A DNA stretch of 64,000 bases from Pseudomonadota bacterium (GTDB taxonomy: Bacteria; Pseudomonadota; Alphaproteobacteria; Micavibrionales; CSBR16-224): assembly GCA_013285465.1 (NCBI GenBank), contig CP053449.1, forward strand, positions 1,239,540 through 1,303,539. Reading direction: 5' to 3'. Shown here in pieces: positions 3,351-52,800 of this stretch. The notes below the pieces were generated by a model, which was given only the letters and a program-made list of their open reading frames with translations, was not told where the DNA came from and did not search any database. Both the position numbers and the translations under genes were made by a program. Numbering within the stretch: the stretch's first letter is position 1; every line of letters starts with the position of its first letter.

Positions 3351-4220
3351 TTATTTTGAATAACTTTTTGTTTTTGCTGCTTTGGCGCGATTTTGAATGT
3401 CGTCTGCAGCTTTTTTAACCTGTTTTTGTGCAGCCGTGTTGAACACATCTGCGGCCAGGCCGACAAACATGCGGCGGCTTTTATCCATGATATTGTGGAT
3501 GAAACCCGAGGTTTCTTGCTTGCCGGTTTCGCTAAGCTGCATGGAGTTTTTCAGTTTTTCACCCCATTTGCGGACGGTTGCTTTCCCTTTCCATGCCACG
3601 CCTGTACCGACAGCGGCGGAGGCAACACCTGCAACCATCAGAGCGATCGGATTGACAACGCCGATAGCGGCGGCTGTAACACCAACGATTTGTGTGGCAA
3701 CGCCCAGAACGGCTGTTCCGGCCAAAGCCGCGCCGCCAAAGGCCGCGACACCGGCAGCTGCGGCAACCGTTACACCTGCGGCAGCGGCAACGCCGCCTGC
3801 AATGGCAAGGCCGTTCAGACCCCAGCGCAGGCCGGTTCCGATAACTTTTCCGACAAAGGAGCGACGGTCAGGATTTTTGCGCCATTCTTCGATTTTGCGC
3901 TCCATAACCTTGTCCATTTTTTCATTGTAAAGGGCGCGTTTGAAATGCCGGAAGGCGAAAAACGCCGGGATAGCCGTCGGCGCGAACAGCGCCAAGGCAA
4001 AGAAACCTGTGAAAATTTGTGTGATGGCGGTGCCGACCATAAAGGGGGCTTTCATCAAAAGGGAGGTACCAAAGCCGATAGCTGTTGCCAGACCGCCCAT
4101 TTTCGCACCGTCTGTGACTGAATCTTTCACGATCGGATTTTTGCGGTTTTTCCATGCAACTTTTACGCGTTGCTCAAGCTCCCACATAAAGCTCGGATAT
4201 TCTTTTTTCTCCAGTGCCAT
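3351..4220 (-). CDS. Uncharacterised Ala/Gly-rich membrane protein
   Basis: I do not recognise this protein (289 aa). The start is ATG 4220 (MALEKKEYPSF), which has GGGAG nine bases upstream; an ATG 18 bases earlier lacks a site. The N-terminus is basic and soluble. A hydrophobic pair lies at about residues 45-90 (KMGGLATAIGFG, then FTGFFALALFAPTAIPAFFA). A charged helical stretch follows, then a long Ala/Gly/Val-rich hydrophobic region (about 125-210) with glycine-zipper-like spacing. The C-terminus is a charged Lys/Ala-rich tail. A TTAA-N7-TTAAC box lies about 120 bp upstream, so CtrA control is possible. It has its own terminator. Confidence 0.75.
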   Translation of the reverse strand: MALEKKEYPSFMWELEQRVKVAWKNRKNPIVKDSVTDGAKMGGLATAIGFGTSLLMKAPFMVGTAITQIFTGFFALALFAPTAIPAFFAFRHFKRALYNEKMDKVMERKIEEWRKNPDRRSFVGKVIGTGLRWGLNGLAIAGGVAAAAGVTVAAAAGVAAFGGAALAGTAVLGVATQIVGVTAAAIGVVNPIALMVAGVASAAVGTGVAWKGKATVRKWGEKLKNSMQLSETGKQETSGFIHNIMDKSRRMFVGLAADVFNTAAQKQVKKAADDIQNRAKAAKTKSYSK

Positions 4221-4341
4221 GAGTCTAAACTCCCTCATTCAAAATAAGATTACACGCCTTTGTATTCCATCAGCCCGCTTAAATCAACGGATTTCGGTAC
4301 CTTTTCCGCAATATGACTCACCCTTTTGCAGAATCGGTGCG

Positions 4342-4357
4342 TTAACTAGTTATTAAC
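4342..4357. promoter_or_regulatory. CtrA-like box (TTAA-N7-TTAAC)
   Basis: The sequence GTTAACTAGTTATTAAC contains TTAA, seven bases, then TTAAC, which is the spacing of CtrA sites in Caulobacter and relatives. It lies about 120 bp upstream of the minus-strand start at 4220. CckA, the top kinase of that pathway, is encoded in the window. Assignment is by pattern only. Confidence 0.5.
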
Positions 4358-4448
4358 ATATACAGATATTTCCATAATTTGTCAAGTATTATGGAGGATT
4401 GCATGCTTTATCGGAGACACGACAGCTATGAAATAAAGCGTAATTGGC

Positions 4449-4472
4449 GCAAATGGCATGGCAAATGGCATG
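4449..4472. repeat. Exact tandem duplication, 2 x 12 bp
   Basis: GCAAATGGCATG occurs twice in direct succession, just left of the AT-rich islet. No function is apparent; it may mark slippage or an insertion edge. Confidence 0.8.
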
Positions 4473-4492
4473 ATGGTTAACTCTTAAAAATT

Positions 4493-4568
4493 AAATGGAG
4501 GAGTTAGGTATTGTGTCCCCAGCTTTTTCCAAATGGAGGAGTTAGGTATTGTGTCCCCAGCTTTTTCC
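4493..4568. repeat. Exact tandem duplication, 2 x 38 bp, with a GTGTCCCC motif
   Basis: Positions 4493-4530 and 4531-4568 are identical. Each copy contains TATTGTGTCCCCAG. A degenerate inverted counterpart (CTGGGGACA, CTGGGGGCACAG) lies at 5944-5970, so the motif brackets the AT-rich gene between them. GTGTCCCC-type motifs of this kind are familiar to me beside REP-associated (RAYT/Y1) transposases; that link is from memory and no transposase is visible here. Confidence 0.85.
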
Positions 4569-4679
4569 CTCAGATTTTTCCCCGATTTTTAAAAACAGGA
4601 TTATTTTCAATATTGCGTTTTTAGGATAAATAAACTAGGTTGAAAACATTCAAAGTAGTAATAATTTCAAGGATGTACC

Positions 4680-5984
4680 ATGCCAGATCCATTGCCAAAT
4701 CTTCTTTATAATCAAGATAATAACGCCGTTTTTGTTCCCGATCACTTACCTTTAGTTTGTCTAACTTTTTACCTTTTCCTTGATTTTGACGATGAAGAGA
4801 CGAGAGCAACACAGCTTCAAGATCTTTTTTATAAATACGAAAACTCTGACTTTTTTCAAAAATTGCAATCTGCTCTTGAAGAAGACCCCCAAGCAAAAGA
4901 ATGTTTAGCTATGGCTCAAGAGGCCATTAAAAAAAAGGAAATTGAGCCTTATGAAAGAGATACAGATTTCCAAAACTACGAAAATGACAATAAGATAAAT
5001 TTACCAGAGTTTTATACCATTAGCTTTTTAATTTGGGCTGAGAAAACGGGCTTCAATATTCCACAACTTATACTTAAAGAATTACAAAACAAGATTGAAA
5101 TATACGCCCATAATAGGAGCTATCGCGAAGAGTACAAACTAAACTTCCCCTATATAACTCAAGAAGAGTTCAATTTCAGGGTAAAAGAACCCTTGTGGAA
5201 CATGACGGATGCCTTACTTTACGTACTTGGATATAAAAGCAACAGAAATGACGATCAGAAAGTTGATTTTTTAAAATATAAAAAACGTGTAAAAAGGCTA
5301 ACAAAGTATATCTTAGACGCTCGTCAGACAGGTGATTTAAAACTCCACGGATTTGACGATCATTTATACGACCATGATCAAAAAGATATTGAAGAAAAAA
5401 GATTAAAGTCTTTCTATAAAAGCCGTGTAAAACCTAAAGAATTTATCACGTTTTTAAGCGGGTTATCTTTGGATTTACCGATTATTGAACAATACATATA
5501 TCCTGATGAACCCACGGTAGAAGAAGCTTCTCTCCCTAAGCCCTTAGAATTTGAAGCTATACTTCACCCTATTATCATAAAAGGAGCATATAAACAGTAT
5601 CAAAATGAACACTTCCGAGATGCGGCTCTAAATTCTATTGTGGCTGTTTTCGACTACCTTCGAGAAAAAACAGGGCTTAGGGATGATGGAGACCGACTTG
5701 TTAGCAAAGCCTTTGCGTTAGAAAATCCATTTATTATTCTAAGCAATATAGCGACAGAGTCAGGAAGAAACGATCAAAAAGGATTTATGAATATCTTCAA
5801 AGGGGCTTATCTAGGGATACGCAATCCAAAGGCGCATACATTAGAAACTAATTTAACAAAAGAAAAAACCGCTCAATACCTTATTTTTGCGAGTTTACTT
5901 GCTAGAAGAATTGATGAAGCGACTTTTCCAAAGCAGAATGGAAATCTGGGGACAAAATCTGGGGGCACAGTACTCATTAAATAA
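4680..5984 (+). CDS. Ymh (TIGR02391)-type protein with N-terminal module
   Basis: This 434-residue protein is strongly AT-rich and unlike its neighbours in codon use. The C-terminal third (about 296-415) matches the Ymh family: HPIIIKGAYKQYQNEHFRDA, LENPFIILSNIATESGRNDQ, GFMNIFKGAYLGIRNPKAH. The central part (about 170-275) resembles a helical module with a lead helix (EPLWNMTDALLYVLGYKSN) and a VKPKEFITFLSG segment, seen in other accessory-gene proteins. The N-terminal 160 residues are not recognised. Ymh proteins are often found in defence or mobile loci, but their biochemistry is not settled. AAGGA lies six bases before ATG 4680. The last 15 residues are encoded within the inverted repeat motif. 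Confidence 0.8.
   Translation: MPDPLPNLLYNQDNNAVFVPDHLPLVCLTFYLFLDFDDEETRATQLQDLFYKYENSDFFQKLQSALEEDPQAKECLAMAQEAIKKKEIEPYERDTDFQNYENDNKINLPEFYTISFLIWAEKTGFNIPQLILKELQNKIEIYAHNRSYREEYKLNFPYITQEEFNFRVKEPLWNMTDALLYVLGYKSNRNDDQKVDFLKYKKRVKRLTKYILDARQTGDLKLHGFDDHLYDHDQKDIEEKRLKSFYKSRVKPKEFITFLSGLSLDLPIIEQYIYPDEPTVEEASLPKPLEFEAILHPIIIKGAYKQYQNEHFRDAALNSIVAVFDYLREKTGLRDDGDRLVSKAFALENPFIILSNIATESGRNDQKGFMNIFKGAYLGIRNPKAHTLETNLTKEKTAQYLIFASLLARRIDEATFPKQNGNLGTKSGGTVLIK
5944..5970. repeat. Inverted counterpart of the GTGTCCCC repeat
   Basis: ATCTGGGGACA and ATCTGGGGGCACA occur 13 bases apart. They are imperfect inverted matches to the TGTGTCCCCAG core of the left-hand tandem repeat. They fall inside the last codons of the Ymh-type gene. 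Confidence 0.6.
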
Positions 5985-6075
5985 AGTGGAAAGTTGTGGT
6001 GCTACCGGATTTTGGATTGTCACATCGGGGGCTGTCTAACCCGCAAGAACGGAGGAGGTGTCTTTCAGCAAAATT

Positions 6076-43984: not shown

Positions 43985-44671
43985 TTAAATTGATGTGCCG
44001 GGCTGCGTTGCTTTCCGCACATCGGTAATCGAGACTTTTTCACCGCCCGCAACAATCAGGATGACATCTCCGTTCACACCGGATTCAATCCCTGTCACAC
44101 GGCTGGGAACGGTTGTCGTCACGTCCACCGGCTTGCCTTCCGCATCCGTAGAGGTAACGCTGATACGGTATTTTCCTGCGGGCAGGGGCGTTCCGTCAGG
44201 TGCAAGGCCGTTCCATGTATAGTCATGTTTGCCGAATTCGCTTTCCCCCGAGACACTTAGAACCGTGTCGCCATCCTCGTTCAGGATGTTGATCTGCGTG
44301 CTGACGGCATTCTCGCCGACGGCATAGCCCAGCGTTGTGGCATTCTCGCCATCAAACATGAAATTTTCGCCCAGTCTTTCAACGTCAAGACCGATAAAGC
44401 CCAAGCCGATACTGGTAATGTTCAAGACATTCAGCGCCAGCATCTGTTCCATCATTTCATTGGCTTTGATCTGCTGTTCCACGCCTGAAAAGGCAACCAG
44501 CTGATTGGTAAATTCCGCAGAATCCATCGGATCCAGCGGGTCCTGATTTTGCAGCTGTGTTGTCAAAAGCAACAGAAACTGGTCAAAATCCTTATTCAGG
44601 GTCGCAGCATCGGCTTTTGCGGCTGATGCCGCCGCTGCCCCTGCTGTTGCTCCGCTTACACTGTCCACCAT
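43985..44671 (-). CDS. flgD: Flagellar hook assembly protein FlgD
   Basis: FlgD caps the growing hook and directs FlgE assembly. The 228-residue protein has the N-terminal signature DFDQFLLLLTTQLQNQDPLD then PMDSAEFTNQLVAFSGVEQQ. The C-terminal half holds the FlgD Ig-like/tudor-like region with YTWNGLAPDGTPLPAGKYRI. It sits between fliK (17 bp) and flgE (43 bp) on the same strand. Confidence 0.95.
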   Translation of the reverse strand: MVDSVSGATAGAAAASAAKADAATLNKDFDQFLLLLTTQLQNQDPLDPMDSAEFTNQLVAFSGVEQQIKANEMMEQMLALNVLNITSIGLGFIGLDVERLGENFMFDGENATTLGYAVGENAVSTQINILNEDGDTVLSVSGESEFGKHDYTWNGLAPDGTPLPAGKYRISVTSTDAEGKPVDVTTTVPSRVTGIESGVNGDVILIVAGGEKVSITDVRKATQPGTSI

Positions 44672-44688
44672 ACTCTCATCTCCTTTTT

Positions 44689-46068
44689 TTATATAAGTAT
44701 GTTTACGCTGTCCTTTTTCAGGACATAGTCATTTGCATGCGCGGCGTTCATCATGCCTGCGGCCTGTTCTGCCGCCGTCATGTCACCGTCTTCTCCCTGC
44801 ATGTAAAAATGGAATTTCTGTCCGCTGTCACGCTCCGCCTCCGCTTTTTCAAACTGATCCTGCCCGGAGGCGAGGTCAAAGCTGAGGGCGTTATCGCCAA
44901 GGTCGATACCGGCCTCTTTCAGGGCTTTTTCCAGCGCCTGTGAATCCTTGCTGAGCATCTGATAGGTTTCCGGTTTTTCCACCAGCAGATGCGCCTTCAT
45001 CGCGCCTTCTTTCCCGAAGATCATTGTCACGGCAACACGCCCCATGGCGGCAGGCTCCAATTGCAGGGTCATTTGCTGGATACGGTCCGCCGCATTGCGC
45101 TGCATCGTCAAAAAGACCTTATGCATGGCAGGAGACTGAAAACTTCCGGCAGCCTTTGCCGTGGCGAATTGCGGTAGGCCGGATTGCTGTGCGAGTTTGC
45201 CGTCCTGCCCCAGCAAAGATTGGCCATCGGGACCTGCCTGCGTTCCTGCGCCTTGTTGCGGGAAGCCGCCATCAGGGCTGTCACCCGCAAAGCCGCTGCC
45301 GTCACCAAAAGCGTTCGTGCCTGTCTGCCCTGCATTGGCGGCTTGCTGCTGTGCTGGTGTTTGTTGTTGTACCTGCTGCTGTTGCGGCTGTGCCTGTTGT
45401 TGCGCATTTATTTGCTGCGCCGGAGCGGGGCGGGGCTGTTCTTTTGCCGCATCACCGTCTTTTGCTTGAACCGCCTGCTGTGTTTGCGGGGTTTGCTGTT
45501 CCTCTTGCGCCAACAGCAAAGCCGCAGGCTGTGACAACTGGATACCTGTCGGAGGTGTTTGTGCCGCCGGTGTTTGGGGGCGGGCGTTCTGTGCCTGCAG
45601 TAATTGCGCCAATGCGGCAACAATCTGTCCCTGAGGATCGTTTGCGGCAATATTTTCCAGTCCCAGCCCCTCTGTCTCGATCCCAAGGGAGAGCAGGATC
45701 TCTTTCAAAGCATCCGTATCGCCGGCCTGTGCTTGTTCCAGCAGGGCAGGATCAATCTCCGTGCCTTGTGCCAGCTTTTCCAGCAAGGCTTCAATGGCTG
45801 TACCTTTAACATCCGTGTCTTTGACAACAATGTCTTGTGCTGTGTCCTGAGGATGCTCCGGTTTTGCCGTCTCGGCTGTTTTGGCGGCTTGCTCCGTTTT
45901 GACCGGAGGTTCTTCTTTCTGCCGCGGCGTTTCGGTCAGGGCGGCAGTAAATTCCTTTTTATTGCAGGCAGCGTTTTCCGCACATGCCTCTCCCTTCCGA
46001 CCGGCGCCGAAATTCTGCGGCGCTCTGGCCTGCGGGGGAAGGTTAATGATGCTGTCTACTGCGGTCAT
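44689..46068 (-). CDS. fliK: Flagellar hook-length control protein FliK
   Basis: FliK measures hook length and switches export specificity. The 459-residue protein has a disordered Gln/Ala/Pro-rich centre (about 195-290). The conserved C-terminal domain is MTLQLEPAAMGRVAVTMIFG, HLLVEKPETYQMLSKDSQAL then EKALKEAGIDLGDN. This is the usual FliK architecture. It is the first gene of the hook operon and lies about 70 bp downstream of a sigma-54 promoter. Confidence 0.88.
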   Translation of the reverse strand: MTAVDSIINLPPQARAPQNFGAGRKGEACAENAACNKKEFTAALTETPRQKEEPPVKTEQAAKTAETAKPEHPQDTAQDIVVKDTDVKGTAIEALLEKLAQGTEIDPALLEQAQAGDTDALKEILLSLGIETEGLGLENIAANDPQGQIVAALAQLLQAQNARPQTPAAQTPPTGIQLSQPAALLLAQEEQQTPQTQQAVQAKDGDAAKEQPRPAPAQQINAQQQAQPQQQQVQQQTPAQQQAANAGQTGTNAFGDGSGFAGDSPDGGFPQQGAGTQAGPDGQSLLGQDGKLAQQSGLPQFATAKAAGSFQSPAMHKVFLTMQRNAADRIQQMTLQLEPAAMGRVAVTMIFGKEGAMKAHLLVEKPETYQMLSKDSQALEKALKEAGIDLGDNALSFDLASGQDQFEKAEAERDSGQKFHFYMQGEDGDMTAAEQAAGMMNAAHANDYVLKKDSVNILI

Positions 46069-46138
46069 TGTCTCTGTCCTGTTTCAACTGATCCGCCATG
46101 TAAAAATACGCATGACGGTTTTTTCCACAGAAATACTC

Positions 46139-46155
46139 TGCAAGCAGCGTGCCAG
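46139..46155 (-). promoter_or_regulatory. Sigma-54 (RpoN) promoter of the fliK-flgD-flgE operon
   Basis: The minus strand reads CTGGCACGCTGCTTGCA. TGGCAC (-24, 46154-46149) and TTGCA (-12, 46143-46139) have the exact five-base gap. It lies about 70 bp upstream of the fliK start and matches the known RpoN consensus. Alphaproteobacterial hook genes are often RpoN-dependent. Confidence 0.85.
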
Positions 46156-46161
46156 TTTATT

Positions 46162-46174
46162 TAAGATATTGATT
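46162..46174 (-). promoter_or_regulatory. IHF-type site beside the sigma-54 promoter
   Basis: The minus strand reads AATCAATATCTTA, an exact match to the IHF consensus WATCAANNNNTTR, in an AT-rich stretch seven bases upstream of the -24 element. IHF commonly bends DNA between enhancer and RpoN promoter. Confidence 0.55.
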
Positions 46175-46319
46175 AATAATGATATTTATTTCGGGATGGA
46201 GAGGGAAAACCGCCGAAAAGATGACTTTCCAGCAAAAAGGCAAAAATGCGCCAAAGACTCTTCCACCGCGGGCGGCAAAAGATTCCGCATCTTTTCGATA
46301 AGACTCGGATTTAGGGATT

Positions 46320-46721
46320 TTAGTGACGAGGCGGCAACCGTTCTTCGACACGGCGCACATTGCTGCGCGGACGTGATGTTTCTCCCCGTTTTTCCACGGT
46401 TTCACGGTCACGGGCGCGTAAAAAGACCAAAGCCTTGTTCAAAGAAACACCTGCTTTCAGCTTTAGTTCTGCCCGGTCTGTTATGCCGTAGCGACTGCTG
46501 ACATTCGTTTTCATGGCACTAATATGGAGGTAAAGGTCATATTGGTTATCTTTCACGCGTTTTGCGTAATACTGGCAATAATAGCTCTCCTTTTCAAAGG
46601 CCGCGACTTTGCGTCCGCAACGTGCATTCAGCTCTTTTGCTTCCATGTAATCCGGCAAGGCCGTGATTTTACGCGGATAGTCGCTGTTTTCGTTAAAAAG
46701 GTCTTTAATAAAGCCGAACAT
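46320..46721 (-). CDS. Tandem family protein, copy 5 (uncharacterised)
   Basis: This is the last and most divergent of five tandem paralogues (133 aa). It keeps the start MFGFIKDLFN, PRKITALPD, the CG pair in NARCGRKV, the YYAKRVKDNQYDLY strand, and a C-terminal NVRRVEERLPPRH ending in His. The usual LTxSNP is lost here. No signal peptide or membrane span is seen. GGAAGG lies six bases before ATG 46721. It follows copy 4 by 15 bp, and 251 bp separate its stop from fliK. Function unknown. Confidence 0.8.
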   Translation of the reverse strand: MFGFIKDLFNENSDYPRKITALPDYMEAKELNARCGRKVAAFEKESYYCQYYAKRVKDNQYDLYLHISAMKTNVSSRYGITDRAELKLKAGVSLNKALVFLRARDRETVEKRGETSRPRSNVRRVEERLPPRH

Positions 46722-46736
46722 TTTTTACCTTCCGGT

Positions 46737-47195
46737 TTAATGAATAAAAGGGTTTGAGATTGATAGTCTTTTTTGCGCATAATGCACATTATTACGCCCG
46801 CGTTTGCGTGCAATTTTCTTTTCACATTTCTTTTGCGGCAGTTTTTCCAGTTTTTTTCTCAGGCGTTCCTCAGCTTCCGCATCATATTTCTTAATGATAT
46901 CGACAGCATCCGCAAAGCCGACACGGCTTTGCAATACAACTTCTCCGACATCGGTTATTTCACCATCCATGATCGTCGCCGTCCCGCAGTAAGAAAACTT
47001 GATATCGTAGTAATGCCCGTCTGTCCGGGCAGCATAAAACTGCGTTTTGTAGCTGTCGCGTCCCGTAAACCATGTCGCAACATTTTGACCGCAGAGCCGG
47101 TTGACCTGATAAGCGCCGTCACAGCTTTCTTCGATTGCCGTGAATTTTCGCGGATAGCTTTTTTTATTAAACAGCGATTTGATATAACCGAACAT
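46737..47195 (-). CDS. Tandem family protein, copy 4 (uncharacterised)
   Basis: The 152-residue protein begins MFGYIKSLFNKKSYPRKFTA and has the conserved CG in NRLCGQNVATW. Next come QFYAARTDGHYYDIKFSY and a Lys/Glu-rich helix (about 108-135). It ends NNVHYAQKRLSISNPFIH. It is the longest copy because of the basic helix insert. AGGAAGAG precedes ATG 47195. It follows copy 3 by 11 bp. No family is recognised. Confidence 0.8.
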   Translation of the reverse strand: MFGYIKSLFNKKSYPRKFTAIEESCDGAYQVNRLCGQNVATWFTGRDSYKTQFYAARTDGHYYDIKFSYCGTATIMDGEITDVGEVVLQSRVGFADAVDIIKKYDAEAEERLRKKLEKLPQKKCEKKIARKRGRNNVHYAQKRLSISNPFIH

Positions 47196-47206
47196 TACGT
47201 CTCTTC

Positions 47207-47629
47207 CTAATGCCGCATCGGATTTGATGCGGTCAGGCGGTTCTGCACAAGACGCACATTATCATCGCTCCGCGCTTTTTCAATTTGCTGCTGCCGCGCA
47301 CTGTATTCCAGATGTTTGTTATCATGCATGCGGCGGTCGGTTTCTTTATTGTCGTATTTGCGGAGATCGGCTATCGCCTCGGCAAGGCTGAGGCGGCCGC
47401 GCACCGTAATCGTATTGCCGTCCATATCTTCGCGATGATAGGCGCATTTTAAGCTATAGCTTTTATCTTTATTACGCTCGGCATAAAATTTGACCGTATA
47501 TTCCATGCTTTCCCAGCGGACATAAGCCCCCATATCACTAATCTCATGACCTTTCATCCTTTGCGGCAAAGCCGTAATTTTTTCCGGCTCCGCTTTTTTG
47601 TTGAACATTTTTTTGACAAAACCAAACAT
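47207..47629 (-). CDS. Tandem family protein, copy 3 (uncharacterised)
   Basis: The 140-residue protein starts MFGFVKKMFNKKAEPEKITA and shows KFYAERNKDKSYSLKCAYH, LSLAEAIADLRKYDNKETDR and the C-terminal NVRLVQNRLTASNPMRH. The CG pair of the other copies is replaced (SDMGAYV). GAGGAAAA precedes ATG 47629. It lies 23 bp downstream of copy 2. No family is recognised. Confidence 0.8.
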   Translation of the reverse strand: MFGFVKKMFNKKAEPEKITALPQRMKGHEISDMGAYVRWESMEYTVKFYAERNKDKSYSLKCAYHREDMDGNTITVRGRLSLAEAIADLRKYDNKETDRRMHDNKHLEYSARQQQIEKARSDDNVRLVQNRLTASNPMRH

Positions 47630-47652
47630 GTTTTTTCCTCTGCTTAAAAAAA

Positions 47653-48081
47653 TTAATGCCCCATCGGGTTGGCAAGTGTCAGGCGCTGCTGTACGCGCCG
47701 GACGTTGTTTTTGCCCCGTTTGGGTGCGATATAGCTTTTTTCAAATGCCGCATGATCGCTTGCCGGCAAATGCCCCAGACGGTTTTGTGTTTCGCGGTCA
47801 TCATGCGCTCTGACAACGCCGATCGCCTCGCTTAGCGGGATTTCACAGCGCAGCATCGCTTTGCCGCTGTCACCGTCATGGTCATTATACTTCACATAGA
47901 CGTTATATTTCTTGTTTTCAACGCGGCGCGCATAAAGCTGATAGCTATAGGAAAAAGTACTGTAGCGTGTAACATCACGACCGCATAATTCATTGACCTT
48001 GTATCCCGGCCCTTTGGAGGGAAGGGAGACAATCGTGCGCGGTGTCGCGTTGCAGTTAAAGATGTCTTTCAAAAAATTCAC
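47653..48081 (-). CDS. Tandem family protein, copy 2 (uncharacterised)
   Basis: The 142-residue protein starts at GTG 48081 (MNFLKDIFNCNATPRTIVSL) and ends NNVRRVQQRLTLANPMGH. It has NELCGRDVTRYS, YQLYARRVENKKYNVYVKY and IPLSEAIGVVRAHDDRETQN. By an ungapped hand count about 78 of 142 positions are identical to copy 1, so this pair is a recent duplication. It follows copy 1 by 24 bp. Confidence 0.82.
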   Translation of the reverse strand: MNFLKDIFNCNATPRTIVSLPSKGPGYKVNELCGRDVTRYSTFSYSYQLYARRVENKKYNVYVKYNDHDGDSGKAMLRCEIPLSEAIGVVRAHDDRETQNRLGHLPASDHAAFEKSYIAPKRGKNNVRRVQQRLTLANPMGH

Positions 48082-48105
48082 AATCTTGCTTTCATCTGTT
48101 TTAAA

Positions 48106-48534
48106 TCAATGCCCGCGCGGGTTGGAAACCGTCAGTCTTTGCTGGACGCGGCGAACATTATTGCGTTGGCGCGCGGGGTCCACAAACCGTTTTTCAAAAG
48201 CGGGATGATCGCTTTTCGGCATATGCCGCACCCGGCGGTAGGTTTCTTTATCATCATAGCTACGGATAATTTCCATTGCCTCGGCAAGCGGCACACTGCA
48301 GCGGATCATGGCTTTGCCTTCATCCGATGAGCCGTACCAATATTTGACCATGATGTCGTAATCCATATCCTTTGTGCGTTTGGCATAGATTTGGCAATTA
48401 TAATCCAAAAAGGAATATGCCGTCACACTCTGCCCGCAGATCTGATTAATATGCCGTCCCTCTACTTGCTGGGGAAGGGATGCAATCGTGCGCGGCATCG
48501 CATTGCAGTTAAAGATGTCTTTAAGCCAATTCAT
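48106..48534 (-). CDS. Tandem family protein, copy 1 (uncharacterised)
   Basis: This is the first gene of the five-gene run (142 aa). It begins MNWLKDIFNCNAMPRTIASL. NQICGQSVTAYS, CQIYAKRTKDMDYDIMVKYW and VPLAEAMEIIRSYDDKETYR follow, and it ends NNVRRVQQRLTVSNPRGH. No export signal is seen. It is divergent from tsaE, with 71 bp between the two starts, where the shared control region must lie. No family is recognised, so I assign no function. Confidence 0.82.
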   Translation of the reverse strand: MNWLKDIFNCNAMPRTIASLPQQVEGRHINQICGQSVTAYSFLDYNCQIYAKRTKDMDYDIMVKYWYGSSDEGKAMIRCSVPLAEAMEIIRSYDDKETYRRVRHMPKSDHPAFEKRFVDPARQRNNVRRVQQRLTVSNPRGH

Positions 48535-48605
48535 AAAGCATTCCGTTTCGGCCGTGTCTCATGTATATTTGTTGTGTTACCATACTATAGAAAGACAGGG
48601 CTATT

Positions 48606-49088
48606 ATGTCAATAAAAAACGGGGCTATTTACACCGATTTATCCTTGGACGCACTTGGCGGAATTGCCGCAGCACTGGCGGATTTTGTGCAAAAAGGAGA
48701 TGTTATTTTACTGGAAGGTAATCTGGGCGTAGGCAAAACGGAATTTGCCCGGATTTTTCTGCGTCATTTGACCGGAAATGACGGGCTGGCCGTGCCAAGC
48801 CCGACCTTTACGCTGGTGCAGCAATATGACACGCCGAAAGGCGAAGTGTGGCATTTTGACCTTTACCGGCTGGAAGACCCTCTGGAAGTCGAGGAAATCG
48901 GCTGGAATGAGGCTTTAACCCATGGTATTTCCCTGATAGAATGGCCCGACCGCCTTGGCCCTTACTTGCCGGAGGATTATTTGCGTCTGCGCCTTGATTT
49001 TTCGGACAAAGGGGAGGATTTGCGCGATATCAGTGTCACGCCCTGCGGCGTATATAAAGACCGCCTAGCAACCAACTGGAAAATATAG
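48606..49088 (+). CDS. tsaE: tRNA threonylcarbamoyladenosine biosynthesis ATPase TsaE
   Basis: TsaE is the ATPase of the t6A complex that modifies A37 of ANN-reading tRNAs. The 160-residue protein has Walker A GNLGVGKTEFAR (38-49), SPTFTLVQQYDTP, VWHFDLYRLEDPLEVEEIGW and ISLIEWPDRLG. It heads the tsaE, MurU-like, addB run. In relatives amgK usually lies between tsaE and the nucleotidyltransferase; it is absent here. Confidence 0.95.
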   Translation: MSIKNGAIYTDLSLDALGGIAAALADFVQKGDVILLEGNLGVGKTEFARIFLRHLTGNDGLAVPSPTFTLVQQYDTPKGEVWHFDLYRLEDPLEVEEIGWNEALTHGISLIEWPDRLGPYLPEDYLRLRLDFSDKGEDLRDISVTPCGVYKDRLATNWKI

Positions 49089-49093
49089 TAAAA

Positions 49094-49837
49094 ATGTCAA
49101 AAACATCCGATCATATGCCGACACAAGCCGTTATTCTTGCGGCAGGTTTCGGCAAGCGCATGCGCCCTTTAACGGAACACTGCCCGAAACCGCTGCTGGA
49201 AGTGGATGGCAGGACGATGCTGGATCGTATCTTCGATGCGCTGGTTGAAGCGGATGTGCGTGATGTGATCGTTAACACGCATTACCTTGCAGAACAGGTA
49301 GAAGATTGCTGCCGACGCCGCAAGGATGTGAATATTCGTACCTCCTATGAAACGGAGATACTTGAAACGGGCGGCGGCGTTAAGAAAGTTTTGCAACATA
49401 TTGATAAAAATCCGTTTTATGTTTTGAACGGCGATGTCATCTGGCAGGATTTTCCCGGTCATGCACCCGCTTTGCAAGGGCTGGCCGGCACATGGAATCC
49501 GGAAAAAATGGATCTGCTGTTGATGGTGTATCCGCGTGAAAAGCTACCGGAAGGCAGCGGTTTGCAAGGTGATTACGAGATAGATGATGCGGGCAGGCTG
49601 CAGCACAAAATCGGCGGGCCGTATGTATTCGCAGGACCGCGCATTGTTTCCCCGGCATTATTTGACAATACGCCGGAGGGCGCTTTTTCCTTCCTTGACC
49701 TGTTTCACAAGGCGCAGAATGCGGGCAGGCTTTACGGTTTTATTCATCAAGGCGCATGGCATCATGCCGGAACACCGGAAGACCTCGCCGCGATCAACGC
49801 AATTTACCGCAACCCGCGAAAGATGGCGGCGACATGA
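49094..49837 (+). CDS. murU: Sugar-phosphate nucleotidyltransferase (MurU-like)
   Basis: This nucleotidyltransferase probably transfers UMP to N-acetylmuramate 1-phosphate in cell-wall recycling. The substrate assignment comes from family and position between tsaE and addB. The 247-residue protein has ILAAGFGKRMRPLTEHCPKP (14-33), VIVNTHYLAEQVE, ETGGGVKKVLQ, FYVLNGDVIWQD and WHHAGTPEDLAAIN. Its usual kinase partner AmgK is missing here. The stop overlaps addB by 4 nt (ATGA). Confidence 0.82.
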   Translation: MSKTSDHMPTQAVILAAGFGKRMRPLTEHCPKPLLEVDGRTMLDRIFDALVEADVRDVIVNTHYLAEQVEDCCRRRKDVNIRTSYETEILETGGGVKKVLQHIDKNPFYVLNGDVIWQDFPGHAPALQGLAGTWNPEKMDLLLMVYPREKLPEGSGLQGDYEIDDAGRLQHKIGGPYVFAGPRIVSPALFDNTPEGAFSFLDLFHKAQNAGRLYGFIHQGAWHHAGTPEDLAAINAIYRNPRKMAAT

Positions 49838-52800
49838 GCACAGCCTCCTTCCACGCGATGATTGATATGCAGCGCGGGGCAGGGCGTCTGCCTGTCTTTA
49901 ACATTCCCGCAGGTGTGTCTTTTGTCGATAGGCTGGCACAAACCATGCTGGACTGGGCGCAGGATGATGCCTTATCCCTGTCGCAATATCTGGTGCTATT
50001 GCCCAGCCGCCGCGCCTGCCGCAGTCTGCGCGAGGCTTTTCTGCGCCTGACGGATGGCGCGCCGCTGATCCTGCCGCGCATGCAGCCGATCGGCGATGTC
50101 GATGATGAAGGGCTGGATGTCCTGCTATCCGCAACATTGGCCGAACAGCCAGATGCGCCCGCTGATTTTCTGGATATTCCGCCTGCGATTACCCCTTTGC
50201 ACCGTCAGATATTGCTGGCACGCACCATTCACGCCGCCAAAGGCGGGGCAGGCGGCATCGTACCGTCCTATGAACAGGCGCTTTCCCTTGCGGACGAGCT
50301 GGGAAAACTGCTGGATGAGGTGCAGACGGAACATCTCAGCTTTGACGGGTTGCAGGATCTGGTTCAGGAAGAAAAATTCGCGCAGCATTGGCAGTCCACC
50401 CTGACATTTCTCAGCATCCTGACCGAACACTGGCCGGATATTCTGGCCGAGCGGGAAATGATCGATCCCGCCGCACGCAGAAACCGTTTGCTGGAGGCAC
50501 AGGCACAGCTGTGGCAGCAACAGCCGCCGCAGCAAAAACTGGTGATCGCCGGTGTCACGGGCTCCATTCCCGCCGTGCGCGATTTGATCAAAACCGCTGT
50601 GGCGCTGCCGGATGCGCTTATGGTTCTGCCCGGATTTGATCCTTTAATGTCCGCAGAAGACTGGCAGCATGTCACGGATGAACATCCGCAATTTTATCTG
50701 AAATTATTGCTGGAACATCTGGGTATGCCGGGCAGTGATGTTGCACTTTGGCCCGGAACGGCAGCGGATACGCCGACGGCGCGGCTGATTTCCGAAACAA
50801 TGCGTCCCGCCGTCACGACAGACCGCTGGCGCGGGCTATCCAATCGCGATATCGATGAAAACGCGCTGGCCCATATCCGCAAAATCGACTGTAAAACCGC
50901 GCAGGACGAGGCGCTCGTCATTGCACTTGCCATGCGCGGCGCATTGGAAACGCCGGAGAAAACCGCCGTTCTGATTACGCCTGACCGCAATCTGTCACAG
51001 CGCGTCTTGGCCTGTCTGGAGCGCTGGGATATTGCCTGTGACGATTCCGGCGGAACACCGCTGTCGGAAACGCAGGTCGGGCGTTTTTTGCTGCTGGTTG
51101 CCGCCGCCGCGCAGGAAAAAGACAGCCCTGTCGCCTTGCTGGCCTGCCTGCGCCACAAGCTGACACATGCCGGTTTAACGCAAGAGGAGATAGATCTCTG
51201 GCGCAATTTGCTGGACAGGGAACTGCGCAAACACACGCTGCTGAATATCACAACGCGGCTGGAAGAGCTGGGAGATCACGGTGATCTGCCTTTGCGCGGC
51301 TGGCAGCATGTACATGATTGTCTGGAACATTTGCGTCTTCTGACCGGTGGCACGGCACACAGTCTGCCCGCATGGTTTGACGCGCATCTGGCGGCTGCCG
51401 AGCAGCTTGCCGCAACGCCGGAGGAGGCGGGAGCGGAGATTTTGTGGCGCGGCGAAGACGGCGAGGCTGCCGCAAGATTTTTGCAGGAAATCGCGGAGTT
51501 ATCCGGTGACGTGCCGGATTTGAATGATGCGCAATATGTCGCATTGCTGCAAAATTTGATGAAAAACACCGTCATACGCCCGCGCTATAATCTGCATCCG
51601 CGTCTTGCTATTCTGGGACAGATGGAGGCACGCCTCTACAGCGCCGATCTGGTCATATTGGGCGGATTGAATGAAGGCGTCTGGCCGCATGACCCCGGCC
51701 ATGACCCGTGGATGTCGCGCCCGATGCGCAAACAATACGGCTTGCCGCCCGCCGAACGCCGCACGGGAATGGAGGCACATGATTTCGCGCAGGCCGTTTC
51801 CGCGCGGGAGGTTATCATTACCCGCGCCCAGAATATCGAAGGCACACCGACCGTGCCTGCACGCTGGCTGCTGCGGATGGAAACCGTCTTGAATGCCGTC
51901 GGATTATCATGGCCGGTTCAGCGCGATATTGCGGGATATGCCGAAATTCTCGACAGACCGGAGCAAACGCTGCCTTGTGCGCGTCCCGCGCCGTCGCCGC
52001 CGGTTGCCGACAGACCGCGTAAACTATCCGTCACCAAGGTCGAGGCATGGATGCGTGACCCTTACAGCATTTATGCGCGTTACGTTTTAGGTCTGGAGGC
52101 ACTCGATCCTTTGGAGCGCGACCCCGGTGCCGCGGAACGCGGGCAGATCATGCATAAAATTCTGGAGGATTTCGTGCGTGACCATTGCATGACAGGCGTG
52201 CCGGACAATGCTTATGATCTGCTGCTGGAATACGGGCAGCGGGAATTTGAAAATATGCGCCTGCCTGATGATATTTACGTGTTCTGGTGGCCGCGCTTTG
52301 AAAGATTGGCCGATGCGCTGGTCCGGCATGAACGCAAATGGCAGCGTGAAGCCGTTCCCGCATTGGTCGAAGCCTATGGCGGGCGTGATTTTGATGCGCC
52401 TGCCGGCGTTTTCAGACTTTCGGCACGTGCCGACAGAATCGATACCATGCGTGACGGCAGCGGCGCGGCGATTATCGACTATAAAACCGGTACGGCACCA
52501 CAGATCGGCGATATCGTCGCCGGATTTTCACCGCAATTGCCGCTGGAGGCTTTACTGGTTGCCGGCACGGCCTTTTCAGGGCTACCGTTATCGGAAACGG
52601 CGGAATTGTTGGTCTGGCAGGTTTCAGGCGGGCATCCGCCGTTTCAGGCAAAGAACTATAAGGCTGACGATATTCGCCGCGCCATTGATAATGCCGCGAT
52701 CGGTTTCCCCGCATTGGTGGCGGCTTTTGATAACCCCGACACACCTTATTACGCCGTGCCTGATCTGGATAAAGCGCCTGCCTATAACGACTATGCGCAT

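Follow-up and report, generated by a model that had tools for sequence, protein, structure and literature searches.

Five tandem paralogues of a clade-restricted family of small basic proteins beside tsaE in a Micavibrionales genome

The window, a stretch of 64,000 nucleotides from contig CP053449.1 of a bacterium of the order Micavibrionales, contains an array of five complete ORFs on the minus strand (46320-48534), all of which encode members of one protein family. The putative operon starts with copy 1 (c1, 48106..48534, 142 aa), which is followed by copy 2 (c2, 47653..48081, 142 aa) with a GTG start, copy 3 (c3, 47207..47629, 140 aa), copy 4 (c4, 46737..47195, 152 aa) with a long basic linker and copy 5 (c5, 46320..46721, 133 aa) with a short linker. 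The intergenic gaps from c1 to c5 were re-measured as 24, 23, 11 and 15 bp, in agreement with the preliminary description, in which five intact genes of 133-152 codons were reported on the same strand, 11-24 bp apart.

The genes around the array in the window are tsaE, a nucleotidyltransferase gene and fliK. The tsaE gene (48606..49088, plus strand; PF02367, E 4e-34), encoding the t6A biosynthesis ATPase, is the divergent neighbour of the family. Upstream of c1, a sigma-70-like promoter (TTGACA-17-TATAGT, 11/12; 48584..48612, minus strand) was found, of which both hexamers and the spacing are identical in the related genome G001. A terminator-like hairpin with 11 pairs and a T-rich tail is located between c5 and fliK (46210..46235, minus strand); its fold has a z value of -2.63 and 3 of 200 shuffles were equally good. 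Promoter-like site and hairpin are no more than a hint of a self-contained operon, as the counts of such sites in the region are no higher than chance. A search against Rfam revealed no RNA family within 44000-50000. Elsewhere in the window (4200-6000) there is an AT-rich island with a G + C content of 0.33-0.42, compared to 0.52 for the window, containing an ORF of 434 aa (4680-5984, plus strand) with a Hypoth_Ymh domain (PF09509, E 2.6e-34) and a GC3 of 0.29. This island looks recently acquired.

The relationship of the five proteins was confirmed by local alignment against shuffled sequences, which resulted in z values of 19.5-99.6 for all ten pairs. As described before, c1 and c2 are identical at 78 of 142 positions (54.9%), and the remaining pairs share 29-35% identity. 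The earlier view that c5 is much more diverged was not clearly borne out: its identity to c1 is 34.7%, compared to 34.3% for c3 and 31.6% for c4, and the protein is mainly shorter, without the linker preceding the C-terminal motif. A CG pair had been reported for four copies, but conservation of this pair does not extend to the wider family alignment, and it is therefore unlikely to represent a catalytic or metal site. Concerning the translation of the frames, the changes between the window's genome (G000) and G001 were counted for c1, c2 and c3, with 56, 43 and 31 at the third codon position versus 14, 5 and 5 at the second. This third-position bias supports the translation of c1-c3, the lack of which had been named as an argument against the family.

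The family could not be assigned to any described one, which is in line with the preliminary description. Every match of its members in Pfam and NCBIfam was below the curated cut-off, and no Pfam family was common to two members. A SPOUT_MTase_2 match of c5 (E 0.0006, below cut-off) was regarded as chance, since no other member matches. Nothing significant was found in PHROGs (best E 0.11) or among the PDB sequences, and PADLOC gave no match. Searches with c1 by tblastn against phages (50,697 records) and plasmids (72,556 records) gave zero matches, and viral contigs, scanned five times, revealed no member.

For the wide-range search a profile of 16 members was used. It matched 5 of the 142 genomes of the order, all of them in two genera of one family, namely g1 (G000, G001 and G002) and g2 (G003 and G006). 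Among 385 genomes of the class and 398 of the phylum, the query genome was the only credible match; one class-level match (L041, E 0.003) was dropped, as it comprises 38 residues with two stops inside. Two neighboring small ORFs of G004 (98 and 128 aa; L060, G004:C1, 5129-5837), located downstream of an sdhA-like gene, have a similar strand pattern. One of them weakly matched a five-row profile (E 0.02), but the 16-row profile matched neither at E values up to 10, and they were rejected as relatives. In a named genome collection only the MAGs M3014 and CSBr16_224 matched, in a scan with the close set that is blind to distant members. For a MAG with the CSBr16 prefix, Cock Soda Lake is given as the source (PMC6704655). 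A saline-alkaline habitat is likely for G002 and, by extension, may apply to the organism of the window.

The profile search proposed in the preliminary description thus yielded matches in this clade only, and the postulated maintenance of tandem paralogues with varying copy number was found within it. Five copies are present in G000, at least four in G001 (three whole copies and the start of a fourth at the contig end), four tandem copies and one orphan on another contig in G002, two in G006 and one in G003. The orphan of G002 (L020, G002:C86, 1-1634) is located at a contig end beside an AbiEii-type nucleotidyltransferase gene (PF08843, E 7e-13) and may reflect a binning error. About 2 kb from the single member of G003, another unrecognised tandem family was observed, consisting of three related proteins of 213-249 aa without a Pfam match (L021, G003:C84, 3268-5424, minus strand).

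In all five bearing genomes, tsaE divergently adjoins the family locus. In genomes without the family (G004, G005, G007, G008 and G013), it adjoins the gene of an FAD-dependent reductase. The far side of the locus is occupied by fliK-flgD-flgE in G000 and G002, by glmS in G006 and by a lipoprotein-like gene in G003, and in the g2 genomes fliK-flgD-flgE is located elsewhere, without the array. Besides the universal tsaE no co-occurring partner gene was found, and no toxin, nuclease, phage or mobility gene lies beside the arrays, the exception being the orphan of G002 with its AbiEii-type neighbor. A recent horizontal arrival was considered and rejected, the codon GC3 of c1-c3 being ordinary for the window and that of c4 and c5 only slightly low.

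For the orthology analysis, c1-c5 of G000 were labeled A1-A5 and the copies of G001 and G002 B and C, respectively. The orthologues of c1 are 83% identical in G001 and 57% in G002, and those of c2 and c3 (B3) in G001 are 92% identical each. In the tree, c2 is the sister of c1 and the pairs A3/B3, A2/B2 and A1/B1 (81/100) were recovered. C1 was placed with the A1/A2 group (84/97), and A5, C4 and the G002 orphan (C5) formed a group (support 100/98). The tree does not resolve the pairs A4/C3 and A3/C2, but in the alignment the members of each pair match in position, in length and in C-terminal sequence, and C3 is similar to c4 in length and basic linker. The order c1(/c2)-c3-c4-c5 was most likely in place before the three g1 species separated, and the pair in G006 most likely results from its own separate duplication.

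The ratio dN/dS between G000 and G001, as calculated by NG86, was 0.097 for c1, 0.064 for c2 and 0.097 for c3 (0.06-0.11 by YN00), compared to 0.185 for tsaE and 0.10 for its next gene, with some of the synonymous distances near saturation. The orthologues of c1-c3 are under strong purifying selection. The ratios measured here between species, no higher than those of the neighbors, and the retained gene order do not support a diversification of the kind expected for conflict or surface-variation systems. A dosage system, which had been considered in the preliminary description as well, is unlikely, given that the copies differ by 45-70% from each other and each one keeps its own orthologues.

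All 16 members are basic (pI 9.4-10.2). The family starts with the pattern M-x-x-hh-K-x-hh-F-N, and the first 11 residues are amphipathic, with a mean hydrophobic moment of 0.63 for the 16 members versus 0.33 for shuffles; amphipathicity does not reach significance when c1 and c2 are taken alone (shuffle fraction around 0.11-0.12). The invariant core residues are P14, Y45, A51, R53, Y59 and D94, and the basic C-terminal helix ends with a His in 15 members. The fold prediction proposed earlier resulted in a confident small alpha/beta domain. The AlphaFold model of c1 has a pLDDT of 88, with an N-terminal helix of low confidence (pLDDT 46), and the core of a g2 member reached a pLDDT of 92, both models resting on the same shallow family of 16 sequences. 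The order of elements is the same in both models, in which two short strands come before a helix, followed by three long strands and then by a long helix; the c1 model has two extra helices.

Using Foldseek, nothing was found at E 0.001 in the PDB and a viral library, the best core match having an E value of 0.49. With VIA-align, where unmatched models typically reach a best Z of 7-8 and values below 8 represent background, all resemblances stayed at background level. The best core match was the N-terminal domain of the African swine fever virus DNA ligase, AsfvLIG (6imj, 6imn; Z 7.0, rmsd 2.9 Å over 76 residues), which binds DNA, was described as a novel fold and consists of a single sheet, one face of which is covered by a long helix (PMC6344480). 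A sheet and a long helix are predicted for the family as well, but the identity is 13% and the ligase domains are missing. The N-terminal head of SAS-6 (Z 5.0-5.5, rmsd around 3 Å over 73-77 residues) runs into a long helix as in the family, yet SAS-6 is a eukaryotic centriole protein with 6-12% identity. The WGR domain (PF05406), known from PARP2 and bacterial MolR-like proteins, has a long helix after an antiparallel sheet, too, and that of PARP2 was among the best fold matches (Z 5.3, rmsd 4.0 Å over 78 residues). A Foldseek hint of WGR membership (prob 0.82, E 0.14) was rejected due to an hhalign probability of 0.2%; the W-G-R motif is missing from the family alignment and no WGR protein was found in 55 relatives. 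With the PUR repeat of Pur-alpha and DUF3276 (Z 4.1) the sheet can be superposed at an rmsd of 2.3-2.5 Å, but the overlap is short (47-50 residues); PUR membership was rejected as well, with an hhalign probability of 2.6% over 11 columns. Matches to the DnaK substrate-binding domain (TM <0.3) were dropped. Membership of the WGR, PUR, AsfvLIG or SAS-6 folds is not claimed.

What is observed is a clade-restricted, vertically inherited family located beside tsaE in two sister genera, which in one genus was expanded by tandem duplication to an operon of four paralogue lineages (c1/c2, c3, c4 and c5). These paralogues are old and have since diverged, retain a constant order and evolve under purifying selection. 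Tentatively, c1-c5 may be regarded as subunits that cannot be exchanged for each other within a single peripheral, charge-driven complex, which would be membrane-bound and might touch nucleic acid. In such a complex, the N-terminal amphipathic helix would sit at the cytoplasmic membrane, on its inner face, or between subunits; a rigid alpha/beta core would follow, and the basic C-terminal helix with its near-invariant terminal His would come last. The copies would act jointly as distinct subunits rather than as interchangeable variants, because the paralogues retain their own orthologues and seem not to replace one another. As one or two copies are sufficient in g2, a hetero-oligomer of four types would not be essential to the basic function.

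The chief rival to this membrane or subunit role is nucleic-acid binding, in which the three-stranded sheet, the following helix and the basic C-terminal helix would bind DNA or RNA and the copies would differ in their target. The high pI of all members and the abundance of DNA binders among the weak fold resemblances (AsfvLIG, PARP2 WGR, Pur-alpha) are consistent with it. However, every Z value and the best core E value are in the background range, the profile comparisons with WGR and PUR fail, and the heads of SAS-6, which are not DNA binders, score about equal to WGR. This role is considered rather unlikely. The preliminary description leaned towards a conflict system, in which immunity or anti-phage proteins encoded in tandem would have diversified in response to variable partners. 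The varying number of tandem paralogues and the position of the orphan copy of G002 near an AbiEii-type gene would fit, but the low dN/dS of the orthologues, the conserved order, the housekeeping neighbor tsaE, the lack of toxin or mobility genes at the arrays, the lack of PADLOC and significant PHROGs matches and the absence from the phage, plasmid and viral collections make it improbable.

Arrays of small paralogues are frequent in secreted proteins, and effectors or adhesins, secreted or located at the surface, that became diverse through duplication would agree with this general frequency. Against it, a signal peptide or transmembrane stretch is not apparent by eye, and the sequence conservation of the orthologues is strong; there is little probability for such a function. 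Equally little is given to an accessory function for the flagellar hook, which is suggested by the location of the array upstream of and co-directional with fliK-flgD-flgE in both G000 and G002. This linkage is confined to g1, a terminator-like hairpin parts c5 from fliK, and flgE is kept in all seven genomes of the bacterial family, including those without the array. Together with the separate location of fliK-flgD-flgE in g2, this indicates that the flagellar neighborhood is probably incidental.

Beyond the subunit reading, the array might encode an undescribed hetero-oligomeric cell structure or regulator with at least four paralogous subunits of a small alpha/beta fold not seen before, unique to two uncultured, probably saline-alkaline genera, although this is unlikely. 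Clade-restricted families are common. A case in which old, differentiated paralogues form an ordered operon, with purifying selection as strong as for housekeeping genes, is well suited to examine how a new protein is integrated into the cell, and the one to five copies found over five species represent a natural series from single-copy to multi-copy states. If the fold is new, the family would extend the known range of alpha/beta domains that are small and basic.
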